From Bacteroides cellulosilyticus (lineage in GTDB: Bacteria; Bacteroidota; Bacteroidia; Bacteroidales; Bacteroidaceae): a DNA stretch of 64,000 bases. Numbering within the stretch: position 1 is the first letter of the stretch; each line of letters begins with the position of its first letter. Both the position numbers and the translations under genes were made by a program. The notes under the pieces are model-generated. The model searched no databases. It was given only the letters and a program-made list of their open reading frames with translations, and was not told the DNA's origin. The stretch is from contig NZ_CP081903.1 of the NCBI RefSeq assembly GCF_020091405.1, positions 6,634,501 to 6,698,500 on the forward strand, written 5' to 3'. Below are positions 3 to 39,124 of this stretch, in pieces.

Positions 3-3000
3 CCCCACCCTGCCGACCTGCAATCACCTATGAACCTGCGAACCGAGGCAGAATATGATGCAAAAACAGACAGGTACTACATACGCACAAAATTAGGGAA
101 TACCGAAATCGGTGTACCGATGATACTAACCCCCGAAGAATATCTGGATTGGACGTTGAAACAATCCATGCAATCTTATTACCGCCAAAAGAACGGAGAA
201 CAAATCGGCAAAGGAAAAGAAGCTTTCGACTTTATGGATATGAAGTTCAACCTTGGACCGGCAGAGAAGTTGTTCGGCCCCGGTGGGGTACAAATACGTA
301 CACAAGGTAATGCAGAACTCAGCTTCGGCATGACATACAAAAACGTAAAGAATCCCTCACTTCCGGAAAGTCAACGCAAAACACTTGGTTTTGACTTTGA
401 CGAGAAAATTAATATCAACGTCAATGGTAAGGTAGGTGACAAGGTGAATATGAACATGAACTACAACACTGATGCTACCTTTGATTTTGACACCAAACGG
501 CTGAAACTGAAATATGAGGGAAAAGAAGATGAGATCATCAAACTGATTGAAGCCGGTAATGTGAGCATGTCCACCAATAACTCACTAATACGCGGAGCAT
601 CTGCACTGTTCGGCATTCGCACAGACCTGCAATTTGGCAAACTAAAGCTACAGGCTGTTATCAGCCAGCAAGAGAGTGAAGCCAAAACAGTGACCAGCCG
701 CGGCGGTGCACAAACCACTACTTTCGACTTCTCCGCAGACAATTACGAAGGAAACCGACACTTCTTCCTTGCCCATTATTTTCGGGATGTCTATGACAAA
801 AACCTGGCACAGCTTCCGAATATCCTTTCGGGAATCACAATTAACAGGATCGAAGTATGGGTAACCAACAAACGAAATAACTATGATAATCCGCGAAACA
901 TCGTAGCACTAACTGATCTTGGAGAAGCCTTTCACATAGGCAACACTACCGCCTGGAGCGGAGTGGGAAACCCCACCAACCCCAGTTCAAACGTCAACGC
1001 TCCCGCCAATAGTGCCAATAACCTCTATGCGGCAATGATCAGCAGCTATGCAGCCGCACGCGATATCAGCCAGGTAAGCAATGTCATGAGTACAATCCCC
1101 GGATCCGAACCCGGCATGGATTACGAAAAAATAGAAAGTGCCCGTCTGCTCACTTCCTCAGAATACACACTGAACAGTAAACTGGGTTATATCTCACTGA
1201 AGCAAACCCTTCAACCGGACGAAGTACTGGCAGTCGCTTTTGAATACACACTCGGTGGACGAAGTTATCAGGTAGGTGAGTTTTCTTCTGACATCAAGGA
1301 AACCGGGCAAAGTTTGTTCGTAAAATTACTGAAGAACACGGCAAACTCCCCGGACGCAGCCTGCTGGGATCTGATGATGAAGAACGTCTACAGTCTCAAT
1401 GCCTACTCCGTGCAGAAAGAGAAATTCCAGTTGAATATCACTTACCAAAGCGATACAACAGGCGTATATCTACGCTATATCCCGGAAGGAAAGATTGCCA
1501 AAACACCCCTGTTGCGTGTCATGAACCTCGACCGCCTTAATAGCCAGAACCAAACAGGTGCGGACGGTTTCTTCGACTTTGTCGAAGGCTATACGGTGAC
1601 AGCATCGGACGGACGTATTTACTTTCCTGTAGTAGAACCTTTCGGCAGCCACCTGCGCAAAGCCATCGGGAATGATGCACTGGCGGACAAATATGTGTTT
1701 CAGGAACTGTACGACTCCACCCGCACCGTAGCGCAACAAACAGCTGAAAAGAATAAATTCCGGCTAACAGGTGAATACCGTGCCTCCAATGCCAATGAAA
1801 TACGGTTAGGAGCTATGAATATTCCACAAGGCTCAGTACGGGTAACGGCAGGCGGCATGACACTGGTAGAAAACTCGGACTATACAGTAGACTACACATT
1901 GGGAGTAGTTACCATTCTCAACCAAAGCATCATTGACGCCGGCACAGCCATCAGCGTAAATCTGGAAAGTAATACGCTCTACAGCATGCAACGCAAAACG
2001 ATGATGGGCCTAAACTTCACCTACGATTTCTCACAGAACTTCTCTTTCGGAGGAAGCATCATGCACCTCAGCGAGAAGCCGCTGACGAGCAAAGTGGCAA
2101 TGGGTGACGAACCTCTCTCCAATACATTGTGGGGAGTGAATGCTTCATGGAAAAAAGAGAGCCAGTGGCTGACAAACATGCTGGACAAACTACCGTTCGT
2201 CACCGCAACCGCCCCCAGCAGCATCAATCTCGGTGTGGAATTCGCCCATCTCATTCCGGGACATGCCAAAGGACTGCAACAAAACGCTTCGTACATCGAC
2301 GATTTCGAAAGCACGCAAAGTGGTATCGACCTTCGCCAGCCCTCATACTGGATGTTGGCAAGCACCCCCTCTCCCCTCTTTCCCGAAGCAACCCGCAGCA
2401 ATGATATCAATTATGGAAAGAACCGGGCACTACTGGCATGGTACCATATTGACGGACTTTTCACCCGCCGTAACTCTTCATTGACACCTACACACATCAA
2501 AAACGACCTCAACCAGCTCAGCAACCACTATGTACGTGAGGTCTATGAGCAGGAACTGTTTCCGAATAAAGAAACTCCCTATCAGGAATCGGCTTCCATG
2601 AACGTGCTGAACCTGGCCTATTATCCACAGGAACGAGGGCCGTACAATCTGGATACAGACCTGAATTCCGACGGTACTCTGCAAAATCCGGAGAATCGCT
2701 GGGGAGGCATGATGCGTAAACTGGATACCAGTGATTTTGAAGCGGCAAACATTGAATACGTCACGTTTTGGTTGCTCGACCCCTTCATCTATGGAGAGGG
2801 GGGTAGTAATCCTGCGGGGGTGCAGGAGCATAACCCTGCAGGGGTGCAGGAGCGTAATCCTGCGGGGGTGCAGGAGCGTAACCCTGCGGGGAACTCTTCC
2901 AAAGGCACTCTCTACATCAACCTCGGCGAAGTATCCGAAGACATCCTCAAAGATGGCAAGAAGTTCTTTGAAAACGGTCTGCCCATTGATGGAGATGCCA

Positions 3001-6000
3001 CAAAGACCGAAGAAACTGTTTGGGGGCGTGTTCCCCGCGACCGCAGTGTGGTATATGCCTTTGATAATGCAGCCGGTGCACGCCGTAGACAAGATGTCGG
3101 ACTGAACGGGCTCTCTACTGAAGACGAACGCACCTTCTCCACTTATCAGAAATATCTGACAGACATACAAGGCAAAGTGGATGCCTCCACTTACGAAAAA
3201 TTCTACAACGATCCGGCAGGCGACAATTATCACTATTTCCGTGGCTCGGACTATGACCGTGAAGAGCGTAGCATTCTGGAGCGTTATAAATACTATAACA
3301 ATACCGAAGGGAACTCCACCGCCAGTGAAGATTCTCCGGAACGATACGATATATCTTCAAAAACCGTGCCCGATGTAGAGGATATCAATCAGGACAATAC
3401 ACTGAACGAGACTGAGAAGTATTTCCAATATCGCATCAATCTGACACCTGCCGACCTGAAAGTAGGGCAGAATTACATCACGGATAAACGAACCGCCAGT
3501 GTCCGCCTGCGCAACGGACAAACGGAAGAAGTGACCTGGTATCAGTTCAAAGTTCCCGTACGCAGTGGTGAGGCTGTGGGAAACATCAAAGACTTCAAGT
3601 CCATCCGCTTCATGCGCATGTTCCTGACCGGGTTTGAGAAACCCATCGTGCTGCGTTTTGCCACCCTGGAGTTGGTACGCGGCGAATGGCGCACCTATAC
3701 CGACGCACTGAGCAATACACAGCAAGGCACTTCTACCACCAGTTCTGCCGCACTGGACGTTTCTGCCGTCAATATCGAAGAAAATGGAGACCGTACTCCG
3801 GTGAACTATGTAATGCCTCCGGGTATCTCCCGTGTCATCGATCCGGGACAACCGCAACTTCGCCAGCAGAACGAGCAAGCCATGAGCCTGAAGCTGGAAA
3901 AGTTGGCTCCGGGTGATGCCCGTGCCGTCTACAAGAATACGGGTATGGACATGCGGCAATACCGCCGGCTGCAAATGTTTGCTCATGCCGAAGCTCTGCC
4001 CGATCTCTCCACAGATCCGCAGAACGGAGAACTTTCCGTATTCATCCGCCTCGGATCAGATTACCGCAGCAACTATTATGAATACGAAATCCCCCTCACA
4101 CTCACTCCGCACGGAGAATACAACGGAAGTACCGTTGCCGGTTGCCTTGCCGTCTGGCCGAAAGACAACAATCTGGACATTGACCTCAGTGTGCTTACTA
4201 ATGTCAAGAAAGCCCGTAATCGCCTAAAGAATATCTCGAATAGTGGTGTCAGCTATGCTAAAGTGTATTCGGAATACGATCCGGATAAACCCTCCAATAA
4301 GATAAGCGTGATTGGTAATCCTTCACTGGCAGAGGTCAAGACAATGATGATTGGTGTGAGAAATAACTCACGCACCGTCAAATCGGCAGAAGTCTGGGTG
4401 AACGAACTGCGCCTGACCGAATTCAACGAAGACGGCGGCTGGGCTGCACAAGGCAATCTCAACTTACAACTTTCCGATATCGGTAGTATCAACCTGACCG
4501 GTCACGTGGAAACAGCCGGTTTCGGCGGACTGGAACAGAGCGTCAGCGAGCGTCGGCTGGACGACTATTATCAGTATAGTTTCACCACCACATTCGACTT
4601 GGGACGTTTCTTTCCTAAAAAGGCCAAATTGGCCGCTCCTATTTACTTCTCTTACTCCAAAGAAGCTACTACGCCAAAGTACAATCCCCTGGACAAAGAT
4701 ATGTTGCTGGATGACGCCCTGGATGCCTGCACCACCGATTGGGAACGAGACTCGCTGATGAATATCGCCCGTGAAATTACGACCTACCGCAATTTCAGTC
4801 TCAGCAATGCACGACTGGGCATTACAAGTAAAAACCCCATGCCTTATGATCCGGGGAACTTTACTTTCAGCTATTCCCGTTCCCTCCGCCACAACCAGGG
4901 TAGTACCACAGCTTACGAAAATGAAACAGACTGGCGTGCTGCAATGACTTATAATTATGCTCCTGTCTATCGTCCGTGGGAACCTTTCAAAGCTATGGAA
5001 AGTAAATCTCCATGGATGCGCTTCGTCAAAGAGCTCAATCTGAACTGGCTGCCCCAAAGCATCTCGTTCAATACCGACATGACGCGTCACTATTACGAAC
5101 TTCAACTCCGCGACCTGGAGGCACTGACTGCCGGAAGCAGTACCATCGGTAGCGGGGATATCAGTATCGAAGGCATCCCCATCTCCGTTGCTAAAGAATT
5201 CCTTTGGAACCGTGACTTCGCCCTGCGCTGGGACCTGACAAGGAACCTGAAACTGAACTTTACCTCCGCTACCCACGCCGAGATTGAAGAACCTTACGGT
5301 GTAGTAAATAAAGACCTTTATCCCGACGAATACTCAGCCTGGAAAGATACAGTACGCCGCAGCCTGTTCTCGCTCGGCCGTCCTATTGATTTCCAGCAGA
5401 CATTCAATGCCACTTACAAACTCCCATTCGACAAGTTCCCCGCTACCGACTGGATCAGTGCCGATCTTCGCTTTGCCTCTTCTTACAACTGGGACCGGGG
5501 TGTTTCCCTTTCCGATGGCGTAGAAATGGGCAATACTGTCAGCAATCAGCGCAGCATCGACGTAAACTCGCGTTTCAATCTCGAAGCACTCTATAACAAG
5601 GTACCTTATCTAAAGAAAGTAAACCGCCGCTTTTCCGCCTCCTATCGCAAACCCTCCTCACCCAAAGAACAAAAGCCCCGCCGCTTCGACAAGGAAGTAC
5701 AATTGCGTGCAGACACTACGGTTACCATTCAACACAGTATGAACTCCCGTCGTCCCAAAGTCACCGCTCTCACAGTGGACGGACGTCGTTATCCCGTACG
5801 TTATAAGATTATAAATGCTAATTCACTACGTATTGATACGCAGGACACGGCACGCATAAAGCTCACTGTAATCCCCGGTCCTGATCCGGAAGATGGTTGG
5901 TGGTATAAATTCGGTCAGCATGCCACCCGCCTTGCCATGAGCGTGCGCAATTTCAGTTTTACCTACAAAAATACGTATGCCATGACCCTTCCCGGTTTCC

Positions 6001-7322
6001 GTCCTGAAGTCGGTGACATGTTCGGCCAGAAGAAACACGGAGGCTTCCTTGCTCCGGGAATGGACTTTGCATTCGGTTTCACCGGAGACGGCTATATCGA
6101 CCGTGCCTTGCAAAACGACTGGCTCATCTGCAACGACTCCGTTGTCAGCCCTGCCAGCAGCAATGCCCTTGAAGATCTTCAATTGCGTATCTCCCTTGAA
6201 CCGATACGCGACCTCAAAATAGACCTTACCGCCAATCGTACCCGCAACCGCAGCCGCGAAATACAATATATGTTCGAAGGTATGCCGGATACCCGCAGTG
6301 GTAACTTCTCCATGAGTATCATTTCTATCGGTAGTGCTTTCGAACGCCCCAGCGCCGGCGACGGTTATCATTCCGGCACATTCGAACGTTTCCGCCGCAA
6401 CCTTGACGTTATCCGTGACCGTGTGGAATCCCAATTCCTCGGTGCACAGTATCCGCAAGGCAGCGCCCTTGCCGGAAAGACATTCGATCCGGCAAACGGC
6501 ACAATCAGCAAGCACTCACCGGATGTCATGATCCCTGCCTTCCTCGCCGCCTATACCGGAAGGAGCGCTCGGAACTCTGCCCTCGACTTCTTCCCCAGCC
6601 TGTTCTCCATGATGCCGAACTGGCGTATCACCTACACAGGACTTACCAAGATAGCCTGGTTCAAAAAGAACTTCCGCAGTGTCAATCTGAATCATGCCTA
6701 TCGCAGCACCTACAGCGTCGGCAGCTACAACACTTTCCAGAGTTTCATGAGCTATATGGGCGATATAGGCTTTGTAGAAGATGTGCAATCAGGAAATCCT
6801 ATCCCTTCATCGCGCTTCGACATCAGCATGGTATCCATCAACGAGCAATTCTCCCCCCTTATCGGTATGGATGCCACCCTCAAAAACGGGCTTACCGCCA
6901 AAGTGGAATATAAAACCAGCCGTATATTAAATCTCAGTATGAGTGCTTGTCAACTGGTAGAAACCGCTTCCCGCGATTTCGTTATCGGCCTGGGATATAA
7001 GATCGTAAACTTCAATTTATTCAGTGGCCGGAATGTAAAAGACAGCAAGAATCGTGTCAGCCATGACCTTGCTCTCCGTGCAGATATTTCATTCCGCAAC
7101 CAGTCCGCCCTCTGCCGGGACATCCAGCAAGGTTTTGCACAAGCTACCAATGGCAACAAAGCCCTGAAAATATCATGTTCGGCAGACTACACCCTGAGTC
7201 GCTTGTTAACCCTGCGCCTTTACTATGACCGCCAGCAAAATACCCCGTTAATATCCTCCAGCTCATATCCGGTAGTCAGTGCCGACTTTGGTTTCAGTAT
7301 GAAATTCTCTCTCACGCGGTAA
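3..7322 (+). CDS. sprA: SprA-like giant outer-membrane protein (5' end outside window)
   Basis: The frame is open from the left edge and codes for ADLQSPMNLR before the first internal ATG at 30, so the true start lies outside the window. About 2,440 residues are visible, close to the usual SprA size. The protein matches the SprA family, the very large beta-barrel translocon of type IX secretion in gliding Bacteroidetes: repeated aromatic-rich beta strands, many NFTYD/SFNTD-type segments, and a C-terminus ending in alternating strands (FGFSMKFSLTR). In gut Bacteroides the partner Gld/Spr genes are often missing, so transport function is an inference here. An in-frame tandem repeat (residues around 927-954, NPAGVQER units) interrupts an otherwise normal region. 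The gene is followed after 67 bp by a separate promoter and gene. Confidence 0.88.
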   Translation, partial: PHPADLQSPMNLRTEAEYDAKTDRYYIRTKLGNTEIGVPMILTPEEYLDWTLKQSMQSYYRQKNGEQIGKGKEAFDFMDMKFNLGPAEKLFGPGGVQIRTQGNAELSFGMTYKNVKNPSLPESQRKTLGFDFDEKININVNGKVGDKVNMNMNYNTDATFDFDTKRLKLKYEGKEDEIIKLIEAGNVSMSTNNSLIRGASALFGIRTDLQFGKLKLQAVISQQESEAKTVTSRGGAQTTTFDFSADNYEGNRHFFLAHYFRDVYDKNLAQLPNILSGITINRIEVWVTNKRNNYDNPRNIVALTDLGEAFHIGNTTAWSGVGNPTNPSSNVNAPANSANNLYAAMISSYAAARDISQVSNVMSTIPGSEPGMDYEKIESARLLTSSEYTLNSKLGYISLKQTLQPDEVLAVAFEYTLGGRSYQVGEFSSDIKETGQSLFVKLLKNTANSPDAACWDLMMKNVYSLNAYSVQKEKFQLNITYQSDTTGVYLRYIPEGKIAKTPLLRVMNLDRLNSQNQTGADGFFDFVEGYTVTASDGRIYFPVVEPFGSHLRKAIGNDALADKYVFQELYDSTRTVAQQTAEKNKFRLTGEYRASNANEIRLGAMNIPQGSVRVTAGGMTLVENSDYTVDYTLGVVTILNQSIIDAGTAISVNLESNTLYSMQRKTMMGLNFTYDFSQNFSFGGSIMHLSEKPLTSKVAMGDEPLSNTLWGVNASWKKESQWLTNMLDKLPFVTATAPSSINLGVEFAHLIPGHAKGLQQNASYIDDFESTQSGIDLRQPSYWMLASTPSPLFPEATRSNDINYGKNRALLAWYHIDGLFTRRNSSLTPTHIKNDLNQLSNHYVREVYEQELFPNKETPYQESASMNVLNLAYYPQERGPYNLDTDLNSDGTLQNPENRWGGMMRKLDTSDFEAANIEYVTFWLLDPFIYGEGGSNPAGVQEHNPAGVQERNPAGVQERNPAGNSSKGTLYINLGEVSEDILKDGKKFFENGLPIDGDATKTEETVWGRVPRDRSVVYAFDNAAGARRRQDVGLNGLSTEDERTFSTYQKYLTDIQGKVDASTYEKFYNDPAGDNYHYFRGSDYDREERSILERYKYYNNTEGNSTASEDSPERYDISSKTVPDVEDINQDNTLNETEKYFQYRINLTPADLKVGQNYITDKRTASVRLRNGQTEEVTWYQFKVPVRSGEAVGNIKDFKSIRFMRMFLTGFEKPIVLRFATLELVRGEWRTYTDALSNTQQGTSTTSSAALDVSAVNIEENGDRTPVNYVMPPGISRVIDPGQPQLRQQNEQAMSLKLEKLAPGDARAVYKNTGMDMRQYRRLQMFAHAEALPDLSTDPQNGELSVFIRLGSDYRSNYYEYEIPLTLTPHGEYNGSTVAGCLAVWPKDNNLDIDLSVLTNVKKARNRLKNISNSGVSYAKVYSEYDPDKPSNKISVIGNPSLAEVKTMMIGVRNNSRTVKSAEVWVNELRLTEFNEDGGWAAQGNLNLQLSDIGSINLTGHVETAGFGGLEQSVSERRLDDYYQYSFTTTFDLGRFFPKKAKLAAPIYFSYSKEATTPKYNPLDKDMLLDDALDACTTDWERDSLMNIAREITTYRNFSLSNARLGITSKNPMPYDPGNFTFSYSRSLRHNQGSTTAYENETDWRAAMTYNYAPVYRPWEPFKAMESKSPWMRFVKELNLNWLPQSISFNTDMTRHYYELQLRDLEALTAGSSTIGSGDISIEGIPISVAKEFLWNRDFALRWDLTRNLKLNFTSATHAEIEEPYGVVNKDLYPDEYSAWKDTVRRSLFSLGRPIDFQQTFNATYKLPFDKFPATDWISADLRFASSYNWDRGVSLSDGVEMGNTVSNQRSIDVNSRFNLEALYNKVPYLKKVNRRFSASYRKPSSPKEQKPRRFDKEVQLRADTTVTIQHSMNSRRPKVTALTVDGRRYPVRYKIINANSLRIDTQDTARIKLTVIPGPDPEDGWWYKFGQHATRLAMSVRNFSFTYKNTYAMTLPGFRPEVGDMFGQKKHGGFLAPGMDFAFGFTGDGYIDRALQNDWLICNDSVVSPASSNALEDLQLRISLEPIRDLKIDLTANRTRNRSREIQYMFEGMPDTRSGNFSMSIISIGSAFERPSAGDGYHSGTFERFRRNLDVIRDRVESQFLGAQYPQGSALAGKTFDPANGTISKHSPDVMIPAFLAAYTGRSARNSALDFFPSLFSMMPNWRITYTGLTKIAWFKKNFRSVNLNHAYRSTYSVGSYNTFQSFMSYMGDIGFVEDVQSGNPIPSSRFDISMVSINEQFSPLIGMDATLKNGLTAKVEYKTSRILNLSMSACQLVETASRDFVIGLGYKIVNFNLFSGRNVKDSKNRVSHDLALRADISFRNQSALCRDIQQGFAQATNGNKALKISCSADYTLSRLLTLRLYYDRQQNTPLISSSSYPVVSADFGFSMKFSLTR
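2808..2891 (+). repeat. 24-bp tandem repeat (3.5 units) inside sprA
   Basis: Three full 24-bp units (2808-2831, 2832-2855, 2856-2879) plus a 12-bp partial encode NPAGVQEH/NPAGVQER. Each unit holds the near-palindrome CCTGCAGGGGTGCAGG (or CCTGCGGGGGTGCAGG). The length is a multiple of three, so the frame is kept. It looks like a mobile or expandable micro-repeat inserted in an exposed loop. Confidence 0.9.
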
Positions 7323-11295: not shown

Positions 11296-11368
11296 GGAAA
11301 ACTTTTGGATTCACCTATACTTTTCAGTGATATTTTGATTAAATAATGATAAAACGTCAATTACAGCA

Positions 11369-11590
11369 TTAATATTTGCTGGCTACTGATTCAATCTGAG
11401 ATTCTATTTGCTCCATAGAAGAAATCTTACTACTTATGAATACTTCATGTTGCTGCAAACAGTTCTTAATAGGCAAAATCAAGTGATTACAAAAGTATTC
11501 GTACTGTTTGTCATTCCATATATTGCGCAAACTGCTAGTTATAAAATCCAATTCTTGCTGTTTTTGAGATAATAGTCCGTATTCCAACAT
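11369..11590 (-). CDS. Short WND-motif protein, last gene of type VII-like operon
   Basis: A 73-residue helical protein. I place the start at 11590 rather than the more distant ATG at 11674, because this ATG is 4 bp after the upstream stop and is preceded by AAAAGG; the longer form would add a hydrophobic stretch encoded inside the neighbouring gene. The signature W25-N-D-K-Q-Y-E-Y-F matches W-N-D-E-Q-N-Q-Q-F of the WXG100-like protein two genes upstream, with W, N, D, Q and F in register. This suggests a second, shorter member of the same helical-hairpin family, possibly a partner for heterodimer formation. No signal peptide. Function is inferred from motif and operon only. Confidence 0.7.
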   Translation of the reverse strand: MLEYGLLSQKQQELDFITSSLRNIWNDKQYEYFCNHLILPIKNCLQQHEVFISSKISSMEQIESQIESVASKY

Positions 11591-11594
11591 AAAA

Positions 11595-12089
11595 TTACCT
11601 TTTAGTATTTTGCAAATGATAGATAAGCTTATCAATAAAACGACAGGCATTATCAGCATATTGTTTTGCTTCATTCATACATGTAAAAGCCTCTTGAGTA
11701 ATATCATCCGCTAGATTCCGGGCTTGATATAATCCATTCTGCACTTCTTCCATATCATTCTCACATTCAATGAGCTCGTCCTCCAACTCTTCTTTCTCAT
11801 CAGTTTTCATATCAATCTCATCTAAAATATGTCTCCGATATGCTTCATCTTCCACGTTATATAAACTGTTATGCAGAGAATTTATAGAAGCCTCCAAAGA
11901 ATTTATTTGCCTATTGATACGTTCACGGGCCCGTTCAATGCGACTTATCAGATTTTCGCACCGACTGACTTTGCTCTGTGCACCCGACTGAAGACGGCTA
12001 CGCACAGAATCAAGTCCACTTATAAAATTATTTATTTGCGAATAAAATGAATACAATTCGTTTATCTCCCGAACGGATACATCATTCAT
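11595..12089 (-). CDS. Coiled-coil protein of type VII-like operon
   Basis: A 164-residue, highly charged helical protein (for example MKTDEKEELEDELIECENDM) with heptad-like spacing through most of its length and no membrane segment or signal peptide. I recognise no named family. It begins 1 bp after the stop of the WXG100-like gene and ends 4 bp before the next start, so translation is probably coupled. The helical build and position resemble the small accessory or LXG-domain partner proteins found beside WXG100 genes in Firmicutes. An adaptor or chaperone role is inference. Confidence 0.75.
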   Translation of the reverse strand: MNDVSVREINELYSFYSQINNFISGLDSVRSRLQSGAQSKVSRCENLISRIERARERINRQINSLEASINSLHNSLYNVEDEAYRRHILDEIDMKTDEKEELEDELIECENDMEEVQNGLYQARNLADDITQEAFTCMNEAKQYADNACRFIDKLIYHLQNTKR

Positions 12090-12090
12090 A

Positions 12091-12369
12091 TTATCTTATG
12101 TTTTTTACTTGCTGAATAGCAGCAGCATAACGACGCATATATGCACTGTAATCATTCATCATCTGGCCTATTTGATTAATGACTTGTACGCTCTGTTCAA
12201 ATTGCCGCATAAACTGTTGATTCTGTTCATCATTCCATCCCTCATTTACGCGATACATTTCAGCTCTAGCCTTATTAAAGTTCTGCACCATAGCATTACT
12301 TAATCCGTCCAAGGCTTGCGCAAAAGCGATGAGTTCTTCTTCATTTCTTACATTAACTTCATGTGCCAT
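12091..12369 (-). CDS. WXG100-like small secreted-type protein (WXD variant)
   Basis: A 92-residue helical protein with the size and layout of the WXG100/ESAT-6 superfamily: a helix (residues 8-40), a turn with W45-N-D (VNEGWNDEQNQQF), and a second helix (48-90). The canonical turn is W-x-G; here D replaces G. WXG100 proteins are substrates and structural partners of type VII secretion ATPases. The gene lies 6 bp downstream of an EssC-like ATPase gene, exactly the context expected. No obvious C-terminal YxxxD/E export signal follows, which is a difference from mycobacterial substrates. Confidence 0.8.
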   Translation of the reverse strand: MAHEVNVRNEEELIAFAQALDGLSNAMVQNFNKARAEMYRVNEGWNDEQNQQFMRQFEQSVQVINQIGQMMNDYSAYMRRYAAAIQQVKNIR

Positions 12370-12375
12370 AATTAG

Positions 12376-15300
12376 TTATTTCATTAAGTTTTTTATATCA
12401 TTTACTGTAATAGAGTCAAAAGGACAATAAAGTATCTCTGTCCCTGTTATGTCGTTACGAAAGTAGCTACGCAAACGTTCATGGTCATCACTCATTTGTT
12501 CCGGCTTAAAATCATCAGACAGAGCCAGTTTTATTGCCGTTTCCGAATCTGTTCTCTGGACAACAACATACTGGAACATCGAATAAATATCTTTTTTGTT
12601 CAAAGAATATTCCTGAAAGAGTAAATTATCCAGTTTGTTAACTTGAAGAATAGTGTGAATCCCATAATCAGGTCCTTTTGTTAAAACAGTTTGCAGTATG
12701 TGCTGCACAGTATCTACCTTGTTTTTAGATTTTGCAGGTTTTTCCATCACAGATTCTGCTGTAAACGGGAAAGGACAATCTGATAAAAAATCATTTGCAT
12801 TTTGATTGGCAGGAGTTGATACTGGCGAATGATCTTCAACTGGCAGCTCAACCTCCGCATTATGCTTTAGTGATGTAAAGTAGTCTTGTTCAAGGATAAA
12901 CAAGAAAGTATCTTCTTTTTCTTTTCTTTCACGTATCTGTATCGCCAATTGTGAAAGCATCTCATTGCGTTGACGATTGCGTACCAAGATATGACAACCG
13001 TAATCTTCCAACGTATTCAAAACTTCTTCGTCAACAGCATATTCATCATCGGGGTCCATACAATCAATAAGATAGAAACGAGCATCTTCACCCATTTTTT
13101 TATAATAGTGCATCAACGAGAGTAGTATATTTAGCTGGATACGGGTACTTTGTAGACGCTCATTAATACCTATTAATAATAGATTAGAGGCTGTTTCAGG
13201 TTTAAAACTTGCAGAGATCAAGTTCGATTTCACACTGATACCTTTACCCAGATAAACTGCAGGATAACGCCGGGGCAATTCATCCGGTATCCAGTCTACC
13301 AATCTATATGTCTGCTTTCCAGAGAAATAGAATGGTTGGAAATCCACTATACTGTTTGTACTTTTTTGATTTATATTCTGCAAATTTTCAGCCAGCCTCT
13401 CACGATCATAAAAATCCGCTTTGAATATAATCCCCTCCTCAAAACCTTTAGGACGGTAATATACCTCTCCTGTGGATAAAGCTTCTGTACGAGTTCCCAC
13501 TGTAGGAATAAATACTTGCGCATCCGTCATACGACAATTCAACAAGTAAGGATCTGTGATATTATTTTTTATTCCCCCTGGAATGTTAGTCCCTGTCAAA
13601 GTCTGAGTGGCAAAAATTAAATGTACCCCCTGATTACGTCCCTCCTTAGCAATACGTGTCAGAATAACATCTATTTCACTTTGTATTTTAAATCTTCCTT
13701 CTTTAAAAAGTTCATGGCACTCATCTACCAGTAAAACTATACGTGGCAACTTTTTATTAGATGTTATTGCATTGTAATCTTTCAAATTAGAGACTTCTTC
13801 ATTGCGCATAAGTCGTGCACGTTCTTGCATCACCTCCCACAAATCTTTCAAAATTTCCAATGTGATTTGTGGGTCTGATTCATCCACCATTAAACATCGT
13901 ACATGTTTACAAGTCCGATAACGATTAAATTCCACACCTCCGAACTTAAAGTCCATCAAATAGAATTGCAGGCTCTCCGGAGAATATTTCAACATGGCAT
14001 GATTTAAAATATCATGCAGAAAGACTGATTTTCCAGAACCTGTCTGGCCAATTATAAATGAGTGTACATGAGATATTTCATCAAGAACAAAATTAATGCG
14101 CCCCTGATTGTTTGTTCCTACTTCAATACTGAATTCTTTAGCTGCATCTTGGTAAGGAGTAACAGTCATTGTTTCTTGTATTTGTTGTTTTTGCAATTCA
14201 GCTTCCCGTTCTTGTTGCTGTGAAAGTTCCTTTTGGAAGTTCTGATAACATTGCTGCCATTTTTTTAATATTTCAATTCTTTTGGAAGCAGTTCCTATGG
14301 GAGTATTTGCTACAGCCGACATTTTAGGTCCATCCGTTTCGATAAACAATTCCTTTTCCCATTGAGAAGGCAGATTACCCACTACTATAATATGAAAACC
14401 TACACGCCAACCATTGCGAATAACGGATTTCATAGTTTCTGTCAGGTGTGAATCTAACTGTTGGGGTAAATCATTCAACACGATCACCTCATAAGGATAT
14501 TCTATCCGTTTCTCCCGGAGGTGGTATTTTATGATATCACCTGCTTCACGGAATCGTTTTTCTATCTCTGAATTCCAGACCTGTATCTGTCTCAATAAAT
14601 CACCCAGCTGCAAGATAGTCCCTCCTACCATCACATCATCCAATTGCTTGAAATTCTCAAAGGCCGAAGTGAAATTCAAGTCAACGCCGGTAATATGTAG
14701 TTTACCAGGAACGAAATGCAACAACATTTCAGTGAGCATAAATTCAACCTTCGCCTGATCTACTATGGATAAATGAAAATAACTGCTCTTCCCTTCCACT
14801 TGCCAGTTTATCATTTGGGGAATATCAGCAGCTACATAGATGCTACCATAACATTGGGTTTCTTTCCGCTCATAATTGACAGGAAATTGTTCACATACAT
14901 ATCGTTTATCTGCAGCTTGCAGACAACTGTTTATATAGTCTTCTACGGAATAATCCTCTTTCTCCTTCACTATGTAAGGAAGAAGGAAAGGATCATGTTT
15001 CCGTAGGAGTTCTTTTCCGTAATTTATACTATCTTCTGTTATTGAGCGAGATTTCCGGGCACAATAACTTATAAAATCATCGCATATCAGCGTTGCTTTC
15101 TGCTTGAAATTTTTAGGTTGATCGGCCAGGCTAGGAAGGTTTTTCAGTTCTTTTCGGATATCAGGATAAAAAGTTTCAAGATCTGTATATGATTTTAATA
15201 CTTCCTCAGCAATAATTTCTCCCAGCTGATTGGCACGCGACAAGCTATCATTATATAACAGCAATCGACCTGCATCTACATATTGATTAGCGTAGTCTTT

Positions 15301-15396
15301 AAAACAATTGAAAAGTCTTCTTTTCAGTTGTTCAATATTATACAATTGCACATGTCGTTCGACCTCTGTTTTTATAATATTATCTGTCAGGCTCAT
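12376..15396 (-). CDS. FtsK/SpoIIIE-family ATPase, EssC-like with three P-loop-type domains
   Basis: A 1,006-residue protein. The central domain (about 420-665) is a typical FtsK/SpoIIIE ATPase with Walker A GQTGSGKS (450-457), Walker B IVLLVDE (553-559) and the downstream RIAKEGRNQGVHLIFATQ motif. Two flanking regions resemble degenerate copies: about 200-345 (ending YEVIVLNDLPQ, RVGFHIIVVGN) and about 700-1000 (NLLLIGINERLQST where a P-loop would be, then FLFILEQDYF). Type VII motors (EccC/EssC) likewise carry several tandem ATPase domains with only some active. Unlike EssC, there are no forkhead domains and no transmembrane helices, so it would need a membrane partner. It starts 2 bp after the Sel1 gene stop. 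Confidence 0.88.
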   Translation of the reverse strand: MSLTDNIIKTEVERHVQLYNIEQLKRRLFNCFKDYANQYVDAGRLLLYNDSLSRANQLGEIIAEEVLKSYTDLETFYPDIRKELKNLPSLADQPKNFKQKATLICDDFISYCARKSRSITEDSINYGKELLRKHDPFLLPYIVKEKEDYSVEDYINSCLQAADKRYVCEQFPVNYERKETQCYGSIYVAADIPQMINWQVEGKSSYFHLSIVDQAKVEFMLTEMLLHFVPGKLHITGVDLNFTSAFENFKQLDDVMVGGTILQLGDLLRQIQVWNSEIEKRFREAGDIIKYHLREKRIEYPYEVIVLNDLPQQLDSHLTETMKSVIRNGWRVGFHIIVVGNLPSQWEKELFIETDGPKMSAVANTPIGTASKRIEILKKWQQCYQNFQKELSQQQEREAELQKQQIQETMTVTPYQDAAKEFSIEVGTNNQGRINFVLDEISHVHSFIIGQTGSGKSVFLHDILNHAMLKYSPESLQFYLMDFKFGGVEFNRYRTCKHVRCLMVDESDPQITLEILKDLWEVMQERARLMRNEEVSNLKDYNAITSNKKLPRIVLLVDECHELFKEGRFKIQSEIDVILTRIAKEGRNQGVHLIFATQTLTGTNIPGGIKNNITDPYLLNCRMTDAQVFIPTVGTRTEALSTGEVYYRPKGFEEGIIFKADFYDRERLAENLQNINQKSTNSIVDFQPFYFSGKQTYRLVDWIPDELPRRYPAVYLGKGISVKSNLISASFKPETASNLLLIGINERLQSTRIQLNILLSLMHYYKKMGEDARFYLIDCMDPDDEYAVDEEVLNTLEDYGCHILVRNRQRNEMLSQLAIQIRERKEKEDTFLFILEQDYFTSLKHNAEVELPVEDHSPVSTPANQNANDFLSDCPFPFTAESVMEKPAKSKNKVDTVQHILQTVLTKGPDYGIHTILQVNKLDNLLFQEYSLNKKDIYSMFQYVVVQRTDSETAIKLALSDDFKPEQMSDDHERLRSYFRNDITGTEILYCPFDSITVNDIKNLMK

Positions 15397-15398
15397 AA

Positions 15399-18119
15399 CT
15401 ACTTTCCTAAAATTTTCTTCAATTTGTTTAATGTCGGATGCTCCAGCTCATAAATAAACTGCTTGGCATTTTCTACCATCTTGACTTTCTTTACAGAATC
15501 AGGATATGGTGTATACTTTATGAAGGACCGATAAAGTTCCAACGCCTTTTGCTGATTTATTTGATATCCTCCTATCCCCTGATGACAGAATACAGCCCAA
15601 TAAAAATAGGCGTTAGGATAGCTGAATTTATTAATAGCTACAGATATTAATTTCCCGGCTTTTGTATATTGTTGTTCATCATAATAGATATCTGTCAAAC
15701 GGCAAACTGCCAATTTATGATTTTGATCGGCAGCTTTTTGAAACCATTGAATAGCAGTCAATACAGGATTTGCATCCTTAATCGAATAAAGTCCAGAATT
15801 AAAAAACATTTCTCCTACTTCATATTGAGCTTCCGCATAACCTTGATTGGCAGCCTTCAATAACCATTCCAGAGCAAATCGATAACTACAACTAGTACCT
15901 ATTCCATTCTTATAGCATAATCCCAGTTCAAATTGTGACTGTTTTATCCCCTTCTTAGCAGACTTTTCAAAATTCTGAAATGCCATTTGAGGTGATTTCT
16001 CCGTACCATAACCATTTTTGTAACAAAGACCCAGATAATACTCTGCGTATTTATCCGGATTCACATCTTCATACCTGCGAAAGTACCAAAATGCCTTATT
16101 CAGATTCTTATTTAATTTGCCATACCCGTAATAGTAGAACATTCCCATAAAATAGTAAGTACCGCTAAATGTTCCGGCATTACTGAAATAAGCAAACGAA
16201 CGGTCAAGGTCCTTAGTAACTCCCCAACCATGATAATACATTACTCCCAAATAATAGTTAGCAGGAAGATTACCATGATTTACAGCTGTTTGCAGCCATG
16301 TCAGGGCATCATGATATTCCTTGACTAAATATTTTTCTTTTCCCAACTCATACTGGGCAGCTATGCAACCTTTTAAGGCCGCTCTGCGATACCAGTCCAA
16401 AGCTCTCGTCTTGTCCTTTATTCGATGTACACCCTCATTATAAGCTTTTCCCATTTTATATGCCGCTTCAGAATGTCCTTGCATTGCTGCTTTTTCATAC
16501 CATTTATAAGCCATCGCATAATCCTTTTCAGCTCCTGCACCCGATTCATAGATTGTGCCCATTTGATACTGGGCCAAGACATGCCCTGCTTCGGCAGCTT
16601 TCAAGTAATATTGCACAGCCTTTGCATGGTTCACAGGCACTCCTTTGCCAGAATCATATTCTACACCTATATTATATAGAAAAGCCGGTTCCCCTTTCGT
16701 ACCGATCAAAGTATAACAGACATGAAGCGATAGACCAGCTTCTTTGAAATGTTCTATGGCTTTCACCGAATCTTGAGCAACTCCCCACCCGTTGGCATAT
16801 AATTTTCCCAAGAAGAAATGACAATCAGTGACATATTCCTTTTTAGCGATCGATGCCATAAAAAGCGCGCGCGCTTTTTGATGTTGTTTTAGGTTACCTA
16901 GCATTCTGGCATGTCCATACAAAGCACCCTCATACCCTTTATTCGCAGCTTGTTCGTACCAGTAAGCAGCTTTCTCGTGATACTTCACCCATTCATATAC
17001 AATCGCCACTTTGTAAGAAGCTTCAGCATTGCCTTGATCTGCACATCTTTTATACCATTTGTAGGCCTGCCCTATGTTTTTTTCTATATGTTTACCTGTT
17101 TCATAGCAGGTGGCTAGTTTATATTGCGCCAATTCATGCCCTTTTTCTGCAGCTCTCAAAAAGAATTTCATCGCCTTCACAAAATCGACAGCTACTCTGT
17201 CTCCTTTTTCGAATTGTAATCCAGATTGATACAATGCGTCTGGCGTATCCCCCCCTAGTCCTTTAATAGAATAGTAGAACTCTCCTTTGGGAAAATTGTA
17301 TCGTTCCACACATTCTACATACCTTTCCGGAGACGACATAAAACGTTTATCAGCAAGGCGGTGAAAAATCTCGGTAGCTTCATGGTACTTGCCTGTAGCA
17401 ATGAAACATTCAGCCAAAAAATATTCAGATTTCAGATGTCCTTTCTCAACAGCTTTTTTATACCATTCTATAGCTTTACCGGGTGCTTTATCCCGTTGAT
17501 GATAATAATAGCCTATGCTATAATATGAATTAGCAATTCCCCCTGCAGCTCCTATCTCATAGAAAGCCTGTGCAGTTGACCAACCGTCTACGCCTCCATA
17601 ACATTCAGCAAGCATATCGGCAGCTTCAGGATGGGTAGACACTTTCGAAAGGCAAGAAATTGCTTCCTTACGCAGATATTCACTTGATTTTTCCGACAGA
17701 CTCCTTTCATAGCAACGTTTGCCATATTCCAGATAGGCAGGATATAAGAAGTTTTTTAATAATTTGTTCTTCAGATCATCCGGAATATTCCATTCATGCA
17801 GTTGTGTGAATTGCTCAAGTCCTATTTTATAGTTCTTCTTTCGCAGGTTTACTCCTCCCCACACTATCTTGGAATAAATGTCTCCTTTTTCTGCTGCTGT
17901 TCTAAGTTGTGTTTCACCCGAGATTCCACAGTTAAATATCCGTTTCCCAATATTTAGTACATATTTCTTATTTTCCAATAGTTCCATTGCCGTTATTACA
18001 TCTGATATATAGGGAGGGACAGGACGCAATAAAGGTTCAGGAGAATTAATCGCTGAAAGCTTATTTCCTAATGATTGAAGAATTTCTTCCGTCTTCTTTT
18101 GTAGTTCTGCAAAGTACAT
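15399..18119 (-). CDS. Sel1-repeat protein, first gene of type VII-like operon
   Basis: About 906 residues, built almost entirely of well over a dozen Sel1 (TPR-like) repeats, recognisable as AQYxLGxxYxxGxGxxxDxxxAxxWYxxAAxxGHxxA. Sel1 repeats form solenoids that mediate protein-protein contacts. There is no signal peptide or membrane segment. I choose the ATG at 18119: a longer reading frame uses a TTG at 18161, but that codon overlaps the promoter. The gene heads the operon and is coupled (2-bp gap) to the ATPase gene, suggesting a scaffold or recruiting factor for the motor. That role is inference. Confidence 0.85.
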   Translation of the reverse strand: MYFAELQKKTEEILQSLGNKLSAINSPEPLLRPVPPYISDVITAMELLENKKYVLNIGKRIFNCGISGETQLRTAAEKGDIYSKIVWGGVNLRKKNYKIGLEQFTQLHEWNIPDDLKNKLLKNFLYPAYLEYGKRCYERSLSEKSSEYLRKEAISCLSKVSTHPEAADMLAECYGGVDGWSTAQAFYEIGAAGGIANSYYSIGYYYHQRDKAPGKAIEWYKKAVEKGHLKSEYFLAECFIATGKYHEATEIFHRLADKRFMSSPERYVECVERYNFPKGEFYYSIKGLGGDTPDALYQSGLQFEKGDRVAVDFVKAMKFFLRAAEKGHELAQYKLATCYETGKHIEKNIGQAYKWYKRCADQGNAEASYKVAIVYEWVKYHEKAAYWYEQAANKGYEGALYGHARMLGNLKQHQKARALFMASIAKKEYVTDCHFFLGKLYANGWGVAQDSVKAIEHFKEAGLSLHVCYTLIGTKGEPAFLYNIGVEYDSGKGVPVNHAKAVQYYLKAAEAGHVLAQYQMGTIYESGAGAEKDYAMAYKWYEKAAMQGHSEAAYKMGKAYNEGVHRIKDKTRALDWYRRAALKGCIAAQYELGKEKYLVKEYHDALTWLQTAVNHGNLPANYYLGVMYYHGWGVTKDLDRSFAYFSNAGTFSGTYYFMGMFYYYGYGKLNKNLNKAFWYFRRYEDVNPDKYAEYYLGLCYKNGYGTEKSPQMAFQNFEKSAKKGIKQSQFELGLCYKNGIGTSCSYRFALEWLLKAANQGYAEAQYEVGEMFFNSGLYSIKDANPVLTAIQWFQKAADQNHKLAVCRLTDIYYDEQQYTKAGKLISVAINKFSYPNAYFYWAVFCHQGIGGYQINQQKALELYRSFIKYTPYPDSVKKVKMVENAKQFIYELEHPTLNKLKKILGK

Positions 18120-18158
18120 AACAGGATTACATTTAATGCCTTTTAAAATTAACTGAAA

Positions 18159-18190
18159 CAAAAATAAGCAAACAAGATCAAAAAGGCAAA
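18159..18190 (-). promoter_or_regulatory. Promoter of the type VII-like operon
   Basis: On the minus strand TTTG (18190-18187) lies 20 bp before TATTTTTG (18166-18159). Both match the Bacteroides -33/-7 consensus with standard spacing. The predicted transcript starts near 18152, about 33 nt before the ATG at 18119. No later promoter is needed, as the five genes are spaced by 6 bp or less. Confidence 0.75.
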
Positions 18191-18238
18191 TTAATCAGAA
18201 CATATTTATTGGAAGCAAATTCAGAGGTATAAAAGAAT

Positions 18239-18276
18239 AGGGTTCACCATCTATAACTCAACAGATGACAAACCCT
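18239..18276 (-). terminator. Hairpin terminator of the prolyl oligopeptidase gene
   Basis: AGGGTT (18239-18244) pairs with AACCCT (18271-18276), with further pairing of CATCT and AGATG inside. On the minus strand the hairpin is followed by ATTCTTTTAT. It separates the peptidase gene from the type VII-like operon. Confidence 0.65.
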
Positions 18277-18298
18277 AAACACAAATAAAAACTTTTAC

Positions 18299-25265: not shown

Positions 25266-26492
25266 ATGGCGACTGTAAAAGTAAAATTCAGAAAATCATC
25301 GGTGGAGGGAAAAGCCGGTACTATCTATTACCAGCTATGCCACAAGCAAAGCAACAGGCAGATAACCACCCGAATGCGTATACTTCCCCATTGGTGGGAT
25401 GCAGAAAAAGAAACATTCATAGCCGAAGCGGACAACATTGGGTTTTCCGCCCGCTACCAGCAGCAAATAGAGAAAGACCTGCAGTGTATCCGTCGGATTC
25501 TATGCGAATGGGACGGAGAAGGAAGAGACTACACTTTAGCGGATGTCATTGACCGCTTTCGTACTTTGAATGAAAACGGAGACACAGTGCTGTCTTGTTT
25601 GACAGTACTGATCGATGAGCTTAAAAACGATGGCCGATGGGGAAATGCCCGCAATCTCCAACGGGCATCGAACAGCTTCTCCGACTTTCTGGGAGGCTTA
25701 GACATACCACTCAAGCAAATAGACGAAAGACTTGTCATGGAGTACGAGCAATGGCTCCGGGCACGAAAAGTGAGCAAAAACAGCAGTTCTTTCTATATGC
25801 GGACTTTGCGCTCCGCTTACAATAAAGTGATAAACCGGAATCAAATGGAACAAACATTTCCTTTTCGGAATGTTTATACCGGTGTGGAGCGTACCCGCAA
25901 ACGTGCCGTACCCGAAGATATCATGGTTCGTTTACAAAAACTGGACCTGACACATTCTGCTCCACTTGCCTTTTCTCGCGACATGTTTATCTTCAGTTAT
26001 TGCACCCGTGGAATGGCTTTTGTAGACATTGCCTATCTGAAAAAGGAGGATGTAAGCGGAGGAATACTTAGTTATGTCCGCCATAAGACGGGGCAACGCC
26101 TCACCGTTCGCATAGAACCTCTTATTGAGGAGATTATCAAGCGTTATGAGCCATCTGTCCGCAACAGTCCCTACCTTTTTCCAATCATTACGTCCAATGA
26201 TCCGGAAGAGACTTTCCGACAATATCAGACGGCGCTGGGCTATCATAACCGAAAATTGAAAAAACTGGGGAAGTTAACAGGAGAAAATCTACATCTCTCC
26301 TCCTATACCGCAAGGCATAGTTGGGCGACGGTTGCACGCAAACACAACGTCCCGTTGTCCGTCATAAGCGCAGGTATGGGGCACACTTCCGAAAAGACCA
26401 CGCTCATATACTTGGACTCTGTAGAAAACTCACTGATAGATAAGGCTAATGAAGGGATTTTAGAGGCGTTATGTTGTAACGTTTCTAAGTAA
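25266..26492 (+). CDS. Tyrosine recombinase, likely invertase of the capsule promoter
   Basis: A 408-residue phage-integrase-family protein. It has an Arm-type DNA-binding N-domain (1-70), a SAM-like core-binding domain (about 90-200) and a catalytic domain (about 215-395). Catalytic residues: R248 (YCTRGM), K274 (HKTGQ), R350 (SYTARHSW), H373 (MGHTSE) and the nucleophile Y382 (IYLDS). The usual HxxR first histidine is tyrosine (YTAR). Similar recombinases in Bacteroides flip the promoter of the adjacent CPS locus. Here the left inverted repeat of a 344-bp invertible segment overlaps the last codons and stop of this gene, strongly linking enzyme and substrate. Confidence 0.9.
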   Translation: MATVKVKFRKSSVEGKAGTIYYQLCHKQSNRQITTRMRILPHWWDAEKETFIAEADNIGFSARYQQQIEKDLQCIRRILCEWDGEGRDYTLADVIDRFRTLNENGDTVLSCLTVLIDELKNDGRWGNARNLQRASNSFSDFLGGLDIPLKQIDERLVMEYEQWLRARKVSKNSSSFYMRTLRSAYNKVINRNQMEQTFPFRNVYTGVERTRKRAVPEDIMVRLQKLDLTHSAPLAFSRDMFIFSYCTRGMAFVDIAYLKKEDVSGGILSYVRHKTGQRLTVRIEPLIEEIIKRYEPSVRNSPYLFPIITSNDPEETFRQYQTALGYHNRKLKKLGKLTGENLHLSSYTARHSWATVARKHNVPLSVISAGMGHTSEKTTLIYLDSVENSLIDKANEGILEALCCNVSK

Positions 26493-32036: not shown

Positions 32037-32801
32037 ATGTGGCCATTTTCTAAATCCCAGCACGTCACGGCAAGCGGCATCCTTTGCGAAATGACCGACT
32101 ACCACTCCCACATATTGCCCGGGGTGGACGACGGCGTGAAGACAATGGACGAATCGCTTCAGATTCTTGCGGAGATGAAACGCCAAGGCGTCCGCAAAGT
32201 GTGGTTTACTCCCCATATCATGGAGGATATACCCAATACCAACGCCGAACTGAAAGAAAGATTTCAAGAATTGAAAGAAAAATTCCGGAAGCCGGAAGAT
32301 TCCTATTGCGGCACGGTGGAACTGAACCTCGCCGCTGAATACATGATGGACAACCTCTTCACGGAGCGTCTTGAGTCCGACGACCTGCTTCCGATTTACG
32401 AAGGCGGTTGCCGGTATCTGCTGGTGGAAACCACCGGCTTCACTCCGCCCATGAACCTGCTACCTGTCCTGAAACGCATTCAGACGAAAGGCTACCGGCC
32501 TTTACTGGCACATCCCGAACGCTATCTATATATGGGCGCGTCCTACTACTGCATGTTGAAGCAAGAACGGGTTGCTTTCCAGCTAAACCTTCCGTCTCTG
32601 ACGGGAGCATATGGCACGTATATACAAAAAAAGGCCGTATCCCTGCTGAAAGCAGGGATGTACGACCTTACAGGAACCGATGTGCATTCTTTGGAACATT
32701 TCAAAGAATGGCTCGGAACACGGATTGGCAGTCGAGACAGGGACATGCTTTCGGCACGCTTCCAAAAGTGGGAGAATGAGATATCTCAACCGTTGGAATA
32801 G
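32037..32801 (+). CDS. CpsB/YwqE-like PHP-domain tyrosine phosphatase with altered C-terminus
   Basis: 254 residues. It has PHP-fold metal ligands: TDYHSHILPGVDDG near the N-terminus, TPHIMED, LAHPERY and GTDVHS. The enzyme dephosphorylates the tyrosine cluster of the Wzc-like kinase encoded 5 bp upstream. The last 13 residues (FQKWENEISQPLE) come from sequence after a 115-bp direct repeat. The second copy of that repeat, at 34236-34350, ends differently (FPAYRDGL), so the original C-terminus was probably displaced when the following ATPase gene inserted. Confidence 0.9.
   Translation: MWPFSKSQHVTASGILCEMTDYHSHILPGVDDGVKTMDESLQILAEMKRQGVRKVWFTPHIMEDIPNTNAELKERFQELKEKFRKPEDSYCGTVELNLAAEYMMDNLFTERLESDDLLPIYEGGCRYLLVETTGFTPPMNLLPVLKRIQTKGYRPLLAHPERYLYMGASYYCMLKQERVAFQLNLPSLTGAYGTYIQKKAVSLLKAGMYDLTGTDVHSLEHFKEWLGTRIGSRDRDMLSARFQKWENEISQPLE
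32649..32763 (+). repeat. 115-bp direct repeat, left copy (3' end of cpsB-like gene)
   Basis: 114 of 115 positions match 34236-34350; the only difference is T at 32692 versus C at 34279. The pair brackets a DUF4143 ATPase gene. The repeat holds the overlapping 3' ends of the cpsB-like gene (plus) and an amidase gene (minus). Confidence 0.92.
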
Positions 32802-39056: not shown

Positions 39057-39092
39057 TTTGTTTGGAGAAAACGGGCGGATTTTGTTACTTTG
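39057..39092 (+). promoter_or_regulatory. Promoter of AAA/PD-(D/E)XK gene
   Basis: TTTG (39061-39064) lies 20 bp before TTACTTTG (39085-39092), one mismatch from the -7 consensus. An AGGAGG ribosome-binding site follows at 39111-39116, 8 bp before the ATG at 39125. Such a strong Shine-Dalgarno is unusual in this window. Confidence 0.65.
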
Positions 39093-39124
39093 CCAATAAA
39101 CCATACGTGAAGGAGGAAACAGAT

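Follow-up and report, generated by a model that had tools for sequence, protein, structure and literature searches.

Can a type VII secretion motor and its WXG100-type partner be kept by a Gram-negative bacterium without a membrane anchor? The question is raised by a five-gene operon in a stretch of 64,000 nucleotides of Bacteroides cellulosilyticus DNA (NZ_CP081903.1, positions 6,634,501-6,698,500; this whole stretch is hereafter called the window, and coordinates are those of the window), which an earlier note on the same DNA had proposed to be a type VII-like secretion operon. Type VII secretion is described for Actinomycetota and Bacillota, with a membrane-fixed motor, in the available part of PMC11217815. 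The operon does hold type VII-like parts; it is not a type VII secretion system by membership, because the defining membrane-bound motor was tested for and was not found. Judging from the sequence comparisons given below, the operon would, with moderate confidence, hold a relative of the type VII secretion motor, acquired and without a membrane anchor.

The operon lies on the minus strand and comprises five co-directional open reading frames (ORFs) running from 18119 to 11369, with intergenic gaps of 2, 6, 1 and 4 bp. Its features are the following:

18159..18190, minus strand: promoter-like site TTTG-N20-TATTTTTG, of the Bacteroides -33/-7 type, directly upstream of the operon
15399..18119, minus strand: gene 1, Sel1-repeat protein of 906 amino acids (PF08238, 7e-82), start ATG 18119
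12376..15396, minus strand: gene 2, EccC/EssC-like ATPase of 1006 amino acids (PF01580, 4e-30)
12091..12369, minus strand: gene 3, WXG100-type protein of 92 amino acids with the motif WND, that is WxD and not WxG (PF25547)
11595..12089, minus strand: gene 4, long two-helix hairpin (coiled coil) of 164 amino acids, by predicted fold
11369..11590, minus strand: gene 5, small helical-type protein of 73 codons with the motif WND, in a WxD segment common to gene 3

This inventory agrees with the earlier note as regards the five closely packed genes, the Sel1-repeat protein, the FtsK/SpoIIIE-type ATPase, the WXG100-like protein of 92 residues and the coiled-coil protein; two gene starts were corrected. 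The second WND protein is real, and its start was moved from 11674 to ATG 11590, most likely the true one, because the longer ORF overlaps gene 4. The hydrophobic start of the longer ORF falls inside this overlap, and a fifth gene coding for a membrane protein of 101 amino acids was ruled out on that ground. The promoter is indeed present directly upstream, as judged from the Bacteroides -33/-7 consensus, but the match itself is not unique (three occurrences of TTTG-20-TATTTTTG in the window against 1.27 expected from shuffles), so that its position carries weight and not its presence. For gene 1, an alternative start at TTG 18161 would give 920 amino acids; ATG 18119 is most likely the start because TTG 18161 overlaps the -7 box.

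The ATPase encoded by gene 2 contains a single P-loop domain. Its active domain (residues 423-680, with GQTGSGKS at 450-457 and D558/E559) is preceded by N-terminal helices (1-163) and by an alpha/beta region (170-362), which is interpreted, solely on predicted secondary structure, as a degenerate ATPase domain, and is followed by a further domain without P-loop (713-1006); the active and the following domain were assigned by fold match. Three results relate this protein to type VII motors: (i) its best fold match is EccC, a type VII secretion ATPase, with two tandem domains aligned (model 400-1006), in agreement with the multi-domain architecture proposed earlier; (ii) a profile built from 57 relatives and compared with the PDB ranks EccC (4nh0) first at 97.9 bits, with EccC5 and YukB chains at 80 to 85 bits and FtsK at 62.8-66.3 bits; and (iii) in a motor-domain tree of 61 rows, a branch of length 2.76 sets FtsK (with L109 and L111) apart, and the window ATPase is placed in a clade of 28 rows from Bacteroidota (support 100/100). 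The active domain also matches the folds of FtsK and HerA, and seven Walker residues are invariant in 57/57 aligned ATPases. The deeper forks of the tree, with bootstrap values of 82 to 95, are less sure, and several of its branches are long. By profile, fold and tree, the ATPase groups with type VII motors and not with FtsK; the grouping with plain DNA translocases that the earlier note had set against its own proposal did not occur. Two results lean towards FtsK: TIGR03928 fails to tell this ATPase (86.2 bits) from the genome's own FtsK (98.9 bits; both far under the cut-off of 778.4), and constructs of EssC/EccC domains 2-3 alone (34.5-39.5 bits) rank under FtsK in the profile of 57 relatives. 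Among the best 120 of 325 database matches, the nearest protein is 97% identical (869 member sequences), and the next is 38% identical.

Gene 3 encodes a WXG100-type protein, an assignment made by family model and not from a structure of the protein: PF25547 (WXG100_2) is matched at 40.3 bits against a cut-off of 27, and PF06013 (17.1 bits) and TIGR03930 (11.9 bits) each remain under their own cut-offs. Of the hidden Markov models suggested in the earlier note, PF06013 and TIGR03928 (EssC) stayed below cut-off; PF25547 was passed, and the feared lack of any WXG100 character was not observed. Among 29 aligned WXG100-type proteins, 16 match PF06013 and nine match PF25547 (E 0.001 or better), and WxD is present in 29/29, in a selection that had mostly required D, G or N. 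The gene 5 protein has the WxD segment in common with gene 3 (hhalign probability 71), and gene 4 and gene 3 have a weakly similar N-terminal stretch (probability 40).

The structural model of gene 4 consists of two helices, 2-76 and 82-163 (75 and 82 residues), with a predicted local distance difference test (pLDDT) score of 94.7. A YwqH-like match (presumably DUF5082) is weak at 3.3e-4 and below its cut-off. Foldseek returned generic long hairpins and no match at E 0.001 or better, with a chain of the LXG/Lap complex (8gmh) at rank 14 (E 0.022). A toxin domain was looked for on gene 4 and none was found. Among 74 relatives of this hairpin, the homologue in L025 (4365-5288) is the sole one with a C-terminal extension (307 amino acids against about 160), and the extension has no family match apart from one at E 0.042; L025 is a contig of a metagenome-assembled genome, and L129, from the genus search, is the same in length and genes. 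The gene 1 product comprises 13 Sel1 stretches (PF08238).

The arrangement of these genes is conserved, as the earlier note had asked to be checked. In a survey of 25 distinct Bacteroidota loci (L007-L031, after removal of four repeats), scored by position, length and motif of the ORFs, the ATPase is followed by a WXG100-type ORF in 24/25 loci, by a gene-4-type ORF in 24/25 (23 by script, plus L025 with its hairpin of 307 amino acids) and by a small WxD gene in 23/25 (21 by script, plus L025 and L029, in the latter hidden in a longer frame). In L024 one gene stands in between and the contig ends early, and in L030 the ATPase is truncated and all three small genes are missing. An identical five-gene layout occurs at another site in a two-contig genome of the same genus (L128). 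A chance cluster is excluded by the gene order kept across related genomes. The gene in front of the ATPase is variable: it encodes Sel1 or TPR repeats in the window, L007 and L009, WG repeats in L011 and L012, LRR in L027 and L028, zinc ribbons in L010, L013, L015 and L017, and other types elsewhere. Additional genes comprise FHA, PP2C and kinase genes in L014 and an SprT-like gene in L018. In L013, a gene directly after the core genes (12722-14074) codes for a zinc-ribbon protein that ends in a TonB_C domain, and at the same position L015 has a gene of 423 amino acids with a transmembrane (TM) segment.

TM segments were called from hydropathy windows, with no dedicated predictor and with 1.6 as threshold for a strong segment. 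By this measure none of the five operon products has a hydrophobic segment, the highest values being 0.91 for gene 1, 1.01 for the ATPase, 0.85 for gene 3, 0.14 for gene 4 and 0.39 for gene 5. Ahead of the motor domain, 32/36 Bacteroidota ATPase rows (four of them repeats) are also below 1.6, and one segment of 1.67 to 2.06 is present in each of the four others (L009, L026, L027, L029); segments of 2.27-2.99 are found in 17/18 planctomycete relatives, the remaining one, L050, reaching 1.91. The absence is not unique to Bacteroidota, because the actinobacterial L051, L079, L081 and L085 likewise have no segment of 1.6 or more. Furthermore, a search of the whole genome for YukD gave nothing at E 0.1 (only B. 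subtilis was positive among 14 control genomes), the best genome match to YukC/EssB (15.6 bits) is under the cut-off of 27.4, a family-model search of the genome turned up no other convincing WXG100 gene, and a YxxxD/E tail occurs in 0/29 of the aligned WXG100-type proteins. The earlier statement that EssB-like genes are lacking is upheld by the YukC/EssB score; for EsaA- and EssA-like genes, absence was judged from hydropathy and gene content, no family search having been made. Elsewhere in the genome, a weak WXG100 match (G000:C1:1586181-1586402, E 0.011, below cut-off) lies inside a frame of 727 amino acids. The name type VII-like secretion operon is thus justified for the EccC/EssC- and WXG100-related parts and their conserved order, but not for secretion, since anchor, YukD, EssB and export tail were not found; the alternative offered in the same note, a cytosolic machine that reuses the parts, is the best fit to five products without hydrophobic segment.

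Comparison with related genomes shows the operon to be inserted between gdh, a glutamate dehydrogenase-family gene, and a gene for a prolyl oligopeptidase; the insertion measures about 6.9 kb, is low in GC and has apparently been acquired. Two further features are:

11358..18280, no strand assigned: inserted segment, approximate extent, by comparison with empty sites in relatives
18238..18277, minus strand: terminator-like hairpin (17 pairs, tail rich in T) behind the upstream prolyl oligopeptidase gene

Indeed, gdh lies directly downstream of the oligopeptidase gene, without the operon in between, in 11/15 loci of the same genus, and in the remaining four the dehydrogenase gene is on the other side (two) or outside the compared stretch (two). 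In BLAST comparisons, homology of the left flank stops at 11354-11359 in 7/12 loci and homology of the right flank starts between 18281 and 18314 in 12/12. The GC fraction of the operon is 0.376 against 0.463 and 0.451 for the flanking genes. Terminator-like sites number eight in the region against 3.9 expected, and the hairpin at 18238..18277 is the one with most pairs. The ATPase was found in at least 5/201 genomes of the family (1e-30), at least 5/158 of the genus (1e-20), at least 3/393 of the order (1e-40) and at least 2/395 of a phylum sample (1e-20); these counts include the window's genome and are lower bounds, only some first-look candidates having been scored per genome. On these counts the system is rare and patchy.

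No integrase adjoining the operon was seen in the window. In L007, two related integrase genes (98-1456 and 14391-15425; 86% identical over 334 amino acids) flank the homologous operon, the first at about 6 kb from it, which suggests a mobilisable unit. Carriage by plasmids or phages was considered and rejected: 173 plasmid and 167 phage records match, all at less than 60% identity to the query, and none covers more than 80% of it in one place. Ten viral contigs match the ATPase in the motor domain only, and PHROGs matches are restricted to generic FtsK/SpoIIIE-like, repeat and coiled-coil families. Elsewhere in the window, a gene for a SprA-like secretion/motility protein (30-7322, plus strand; SprA_N, 2.5e-241) ends 4 kb from the operon; the two are probably chance neighbours, in view of the operon's insertion between gdh and the oligopeptidase gene. 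A phage integrase family gene (25266-26492, plus strand) stands ahead of capsule-type genes (Wzz-like, 29644-32031; CpsB/CapC, 32037-32801), and a DUF3987/PriCT_2 gene (36094-37863, minus strand) and an AAA-ATPase_like plus PDDEXK_9 gene (39062-40720, plus strand) are possibly mobile or accessory.

The operon probably encodes a soluble, hexameric protein-handling motor that acts on a WXG100-type complex, with the Sel1 protein as scaffold or selector; the motor is possibly docked at the membrane, and its role is perhaps one in conflict, through toxin release or a response to mobile elements. In this mechanism, the ATPase would form a hexamer as EccC, EssC and FtsK do, the three small proteins would constitute one substrate or adaptor complex gripped by the ATPase, and the Sel1 protein would select or scaffold the target. 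The motor would then pull on, unfold or release the complex in the cytoplasm, with no export through a channel of its own, and in relatives with a TM helix in the front neighbour, that neighbour would dock it at the membrane. More tentatively, the anchor may have been lost or passed to an exchangeable neighbour (Sel1, TPR, WG and others, many with a TM helix); were this true, the operon would represent a distinct class of WXG100 motor of Gram-negative Bacteroidota, in which a secretion pump has become a modular, re-targetable intracellular machine. A conserved stand-alone operon of Gram-negative Bacteroidota that keeps the motor and its WXG100-type partner and drops the anchor would also allow a direct test of the channel-less pair, and the answer would help to distinguish what the motor does at its core from export itself and would be relevant to the TM-less versions found beside defence loci.

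Several observations weigh against a soluble motor with such a role and are considered here together with the alternatives. A TM segment is predicted for the front gene product in 11/18 scored relatives, against 41/167 more distant background ORFs (six of the 11 cases come from one Prevotella subclade, and the front genes of the window and of L128 have no TM-like segment). The machine may be membrane-linked as a rule, and the lack of a segment in the window may be no proof of a purely cytosolic role; it is mainly because of these front genes that such a role is not insisted on. The same front genes favour a true Gram-negative secretion system, in which the soluble motor would dock either on the variable neighbour or on a membrane anchor and channel whose genes lie elsewhere, and export the WXG100-type complex or a client. 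Such a system would also be in line with the service of WXG100 proteins and EccC/EssC motors in secretion elsewhere (PMC11217815, available part), with the TonB_C zinc-ribbon protein behind the core genes in L013 and with the weak likeness of the gene 4 hairpin to LXG/Lap partners. It is nevertheless rather unlikely given operon products that are all free of hydrophobic segments, a genome in which YukD, an above-threshold YukC/EssB and a second convincing WXG100 gene were searched for and not found, and aligned WXG100-type proteins none of which carries the export tail.

The acquired, patchy and rare character of the operon could instead point to an anti-phage or anti-plasmid defence module with the motor as a DNA translocase or a sensor-driven gate, as could the FtsK and HerA fold matches of the active domain and the occurrence of TM-less EssC/WXG100 modules inside CoCoNuT loci (PMC11090510, available part) and in L107. 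This is improbable, however: the ATPase clade stands apart from the CoCoNuT-like group, no nuclease, helicase or CARF gene belongs to the operon, the neighbours in the window are ordinary metabolic genes (GDH, S9 peptidase, M24 peptidase and DUF3843), and PADLOC matches are partial only, in the ATPase domain, the Sel1 repeats or the coiled coil (the best, SspH at 2.4e-24, covers positions 1537-1688 of 1766). The flanks and the PADLOC results also count against the conflict role proposed above, and so do the hairpin relatives, 73/74 of which have no extra domain (159 amino acids at most) and because of which no effector is visible in this ATPase clade.

Finally, an ordinary DNA translocase operon with small proteins of chance resemblance, or a decayed type VII remnant, is highly improbable, for although TIGR03928 scores the genome's own FtsK above the window ATPase, the ORFs are intact and the Walker residues invariant, the WXG100-type gene is co-conserved with the ATPase, FtsK is separated by its long branch, and decay in a single lineage is disfavoured because strong segments are equally lacking ahead of the motor domain in the 32/36 Bacteroidota rows.

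As regards known systems, FtsK and SpoIIIE have one motor domain, a gamma domain and TM helices. The protein encoded by gene 2 resembles them in the fold of its active domain and in its Walker motifs, and differs from them by a second tandem ATPase-type domain and by its distance in the motor-domain tree. The LXG partners Lap1 and Lap2 (DUF5082/DUF5344) are described in the available part of PMC9600955 as small helical, WXG100-resembling, cytoplasmic partners. The small helical proteins of the window likewise resemble WXG100, but the operon has no LXG toxin gene and the YwqH-like match of gene 4 is below cut-off. For the type VII systems a to j (EccC/EssC/TsxC with EsxA/TsxA), the available part of PMC11217815 reports membrane-bound ATPases with four NTPase domains in Gram-positive phyla, and a YukD-like protein in most of the new systems. 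An FtsK-family multi-domain ATPase with a WXG100 partner is common to these systems and to the window, and kinase, phosphatase and FHA genes lie beside some relatives of the operon; the window differs in that it lacks a hydrophobic segment and YukD and has WxD instead of WxG.

Searches of the open-licence PMC literature gave no title or abstract start that concerns a WXG100 operon of Bacteroidota. Among described systems, the nearest is the TM-less EssC/WXG100 module found beside some CoCoNuT loci (PMC11090510, eLife 2024), in the available text of which the stem "Bacteroid-" does not occur. According to this text, the module comprises EssC homologues that have no TM helices, start with a coiled coil and are active in the central one of their ATPase domains only, together with a coiled-coil nuclease and two WXG100-type proteins; an older study is cited there for stand-alone copies, and the works cited include a 2012 study of TerY-P loci.

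In the motor-domain tree, the CoCoNuT-like group (99/93) is formed by a Caballeronia plasmid (L107), a Helicobacter sp. plasmid (L108) and the planctomycete L050, and the window ATPase belongs to its own separate clade (100/100). L107 carries VWA, WXG100, CARF, PP2C and kinase genes, like the CoCoNuT description; its protein of 436 amino acids has no Pfam match, so that a nuclease assignment is unsupported. L108 (3071-7473) encodes a WXG100-like protein (PF06013, 24.0 bits, under the cut-off of 27.3), a protein whose C-terminal part is an HNH/WHH nuclease, an SMI1/KNR4 protein, a further small protein and an FtsK/EssC-like ATPase with one segment at 1.71. Proteins of the SMI1/KNR4 type can confer immunity. 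A second Bacteroidota clade of seven rows (100/99) consists of soluble ATPases (L032, L040, L043, L076, L078, L080, L082) with an N-terminal FHA domain in 4/7 and a GYF domain in 2/7; two WXG100-type genes are present in L040, L043, L076 and L082, a kinase gene in L078, and the hairpin genes are longer (236-292 amino acids).

Compared with the CoCoNuT-linked module (PMC11090510, same available text), the window operon stands alone, without VWA, PP2C, kinase, CARF or McrBC genes, its coiled-coil protein has no nuclease, its second small protein retains WxD, its ATPase gene precedes the small genes, and a Sel1 protein stands in front. The counterpart of the active domain varies with the comparison made, the PDB profiles favouring the first EccC/EssC domain, and TIGR03928 and the CoCoNuT description the second. 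The likeness lies in the core of both: an EssC-like ATPase without TM helices, with an N-terminal helical region and a single domain that retains an ATP site, accompanied by a coiled-coil protein, a WXG100 protein and a second small protein that is WXG100-like.

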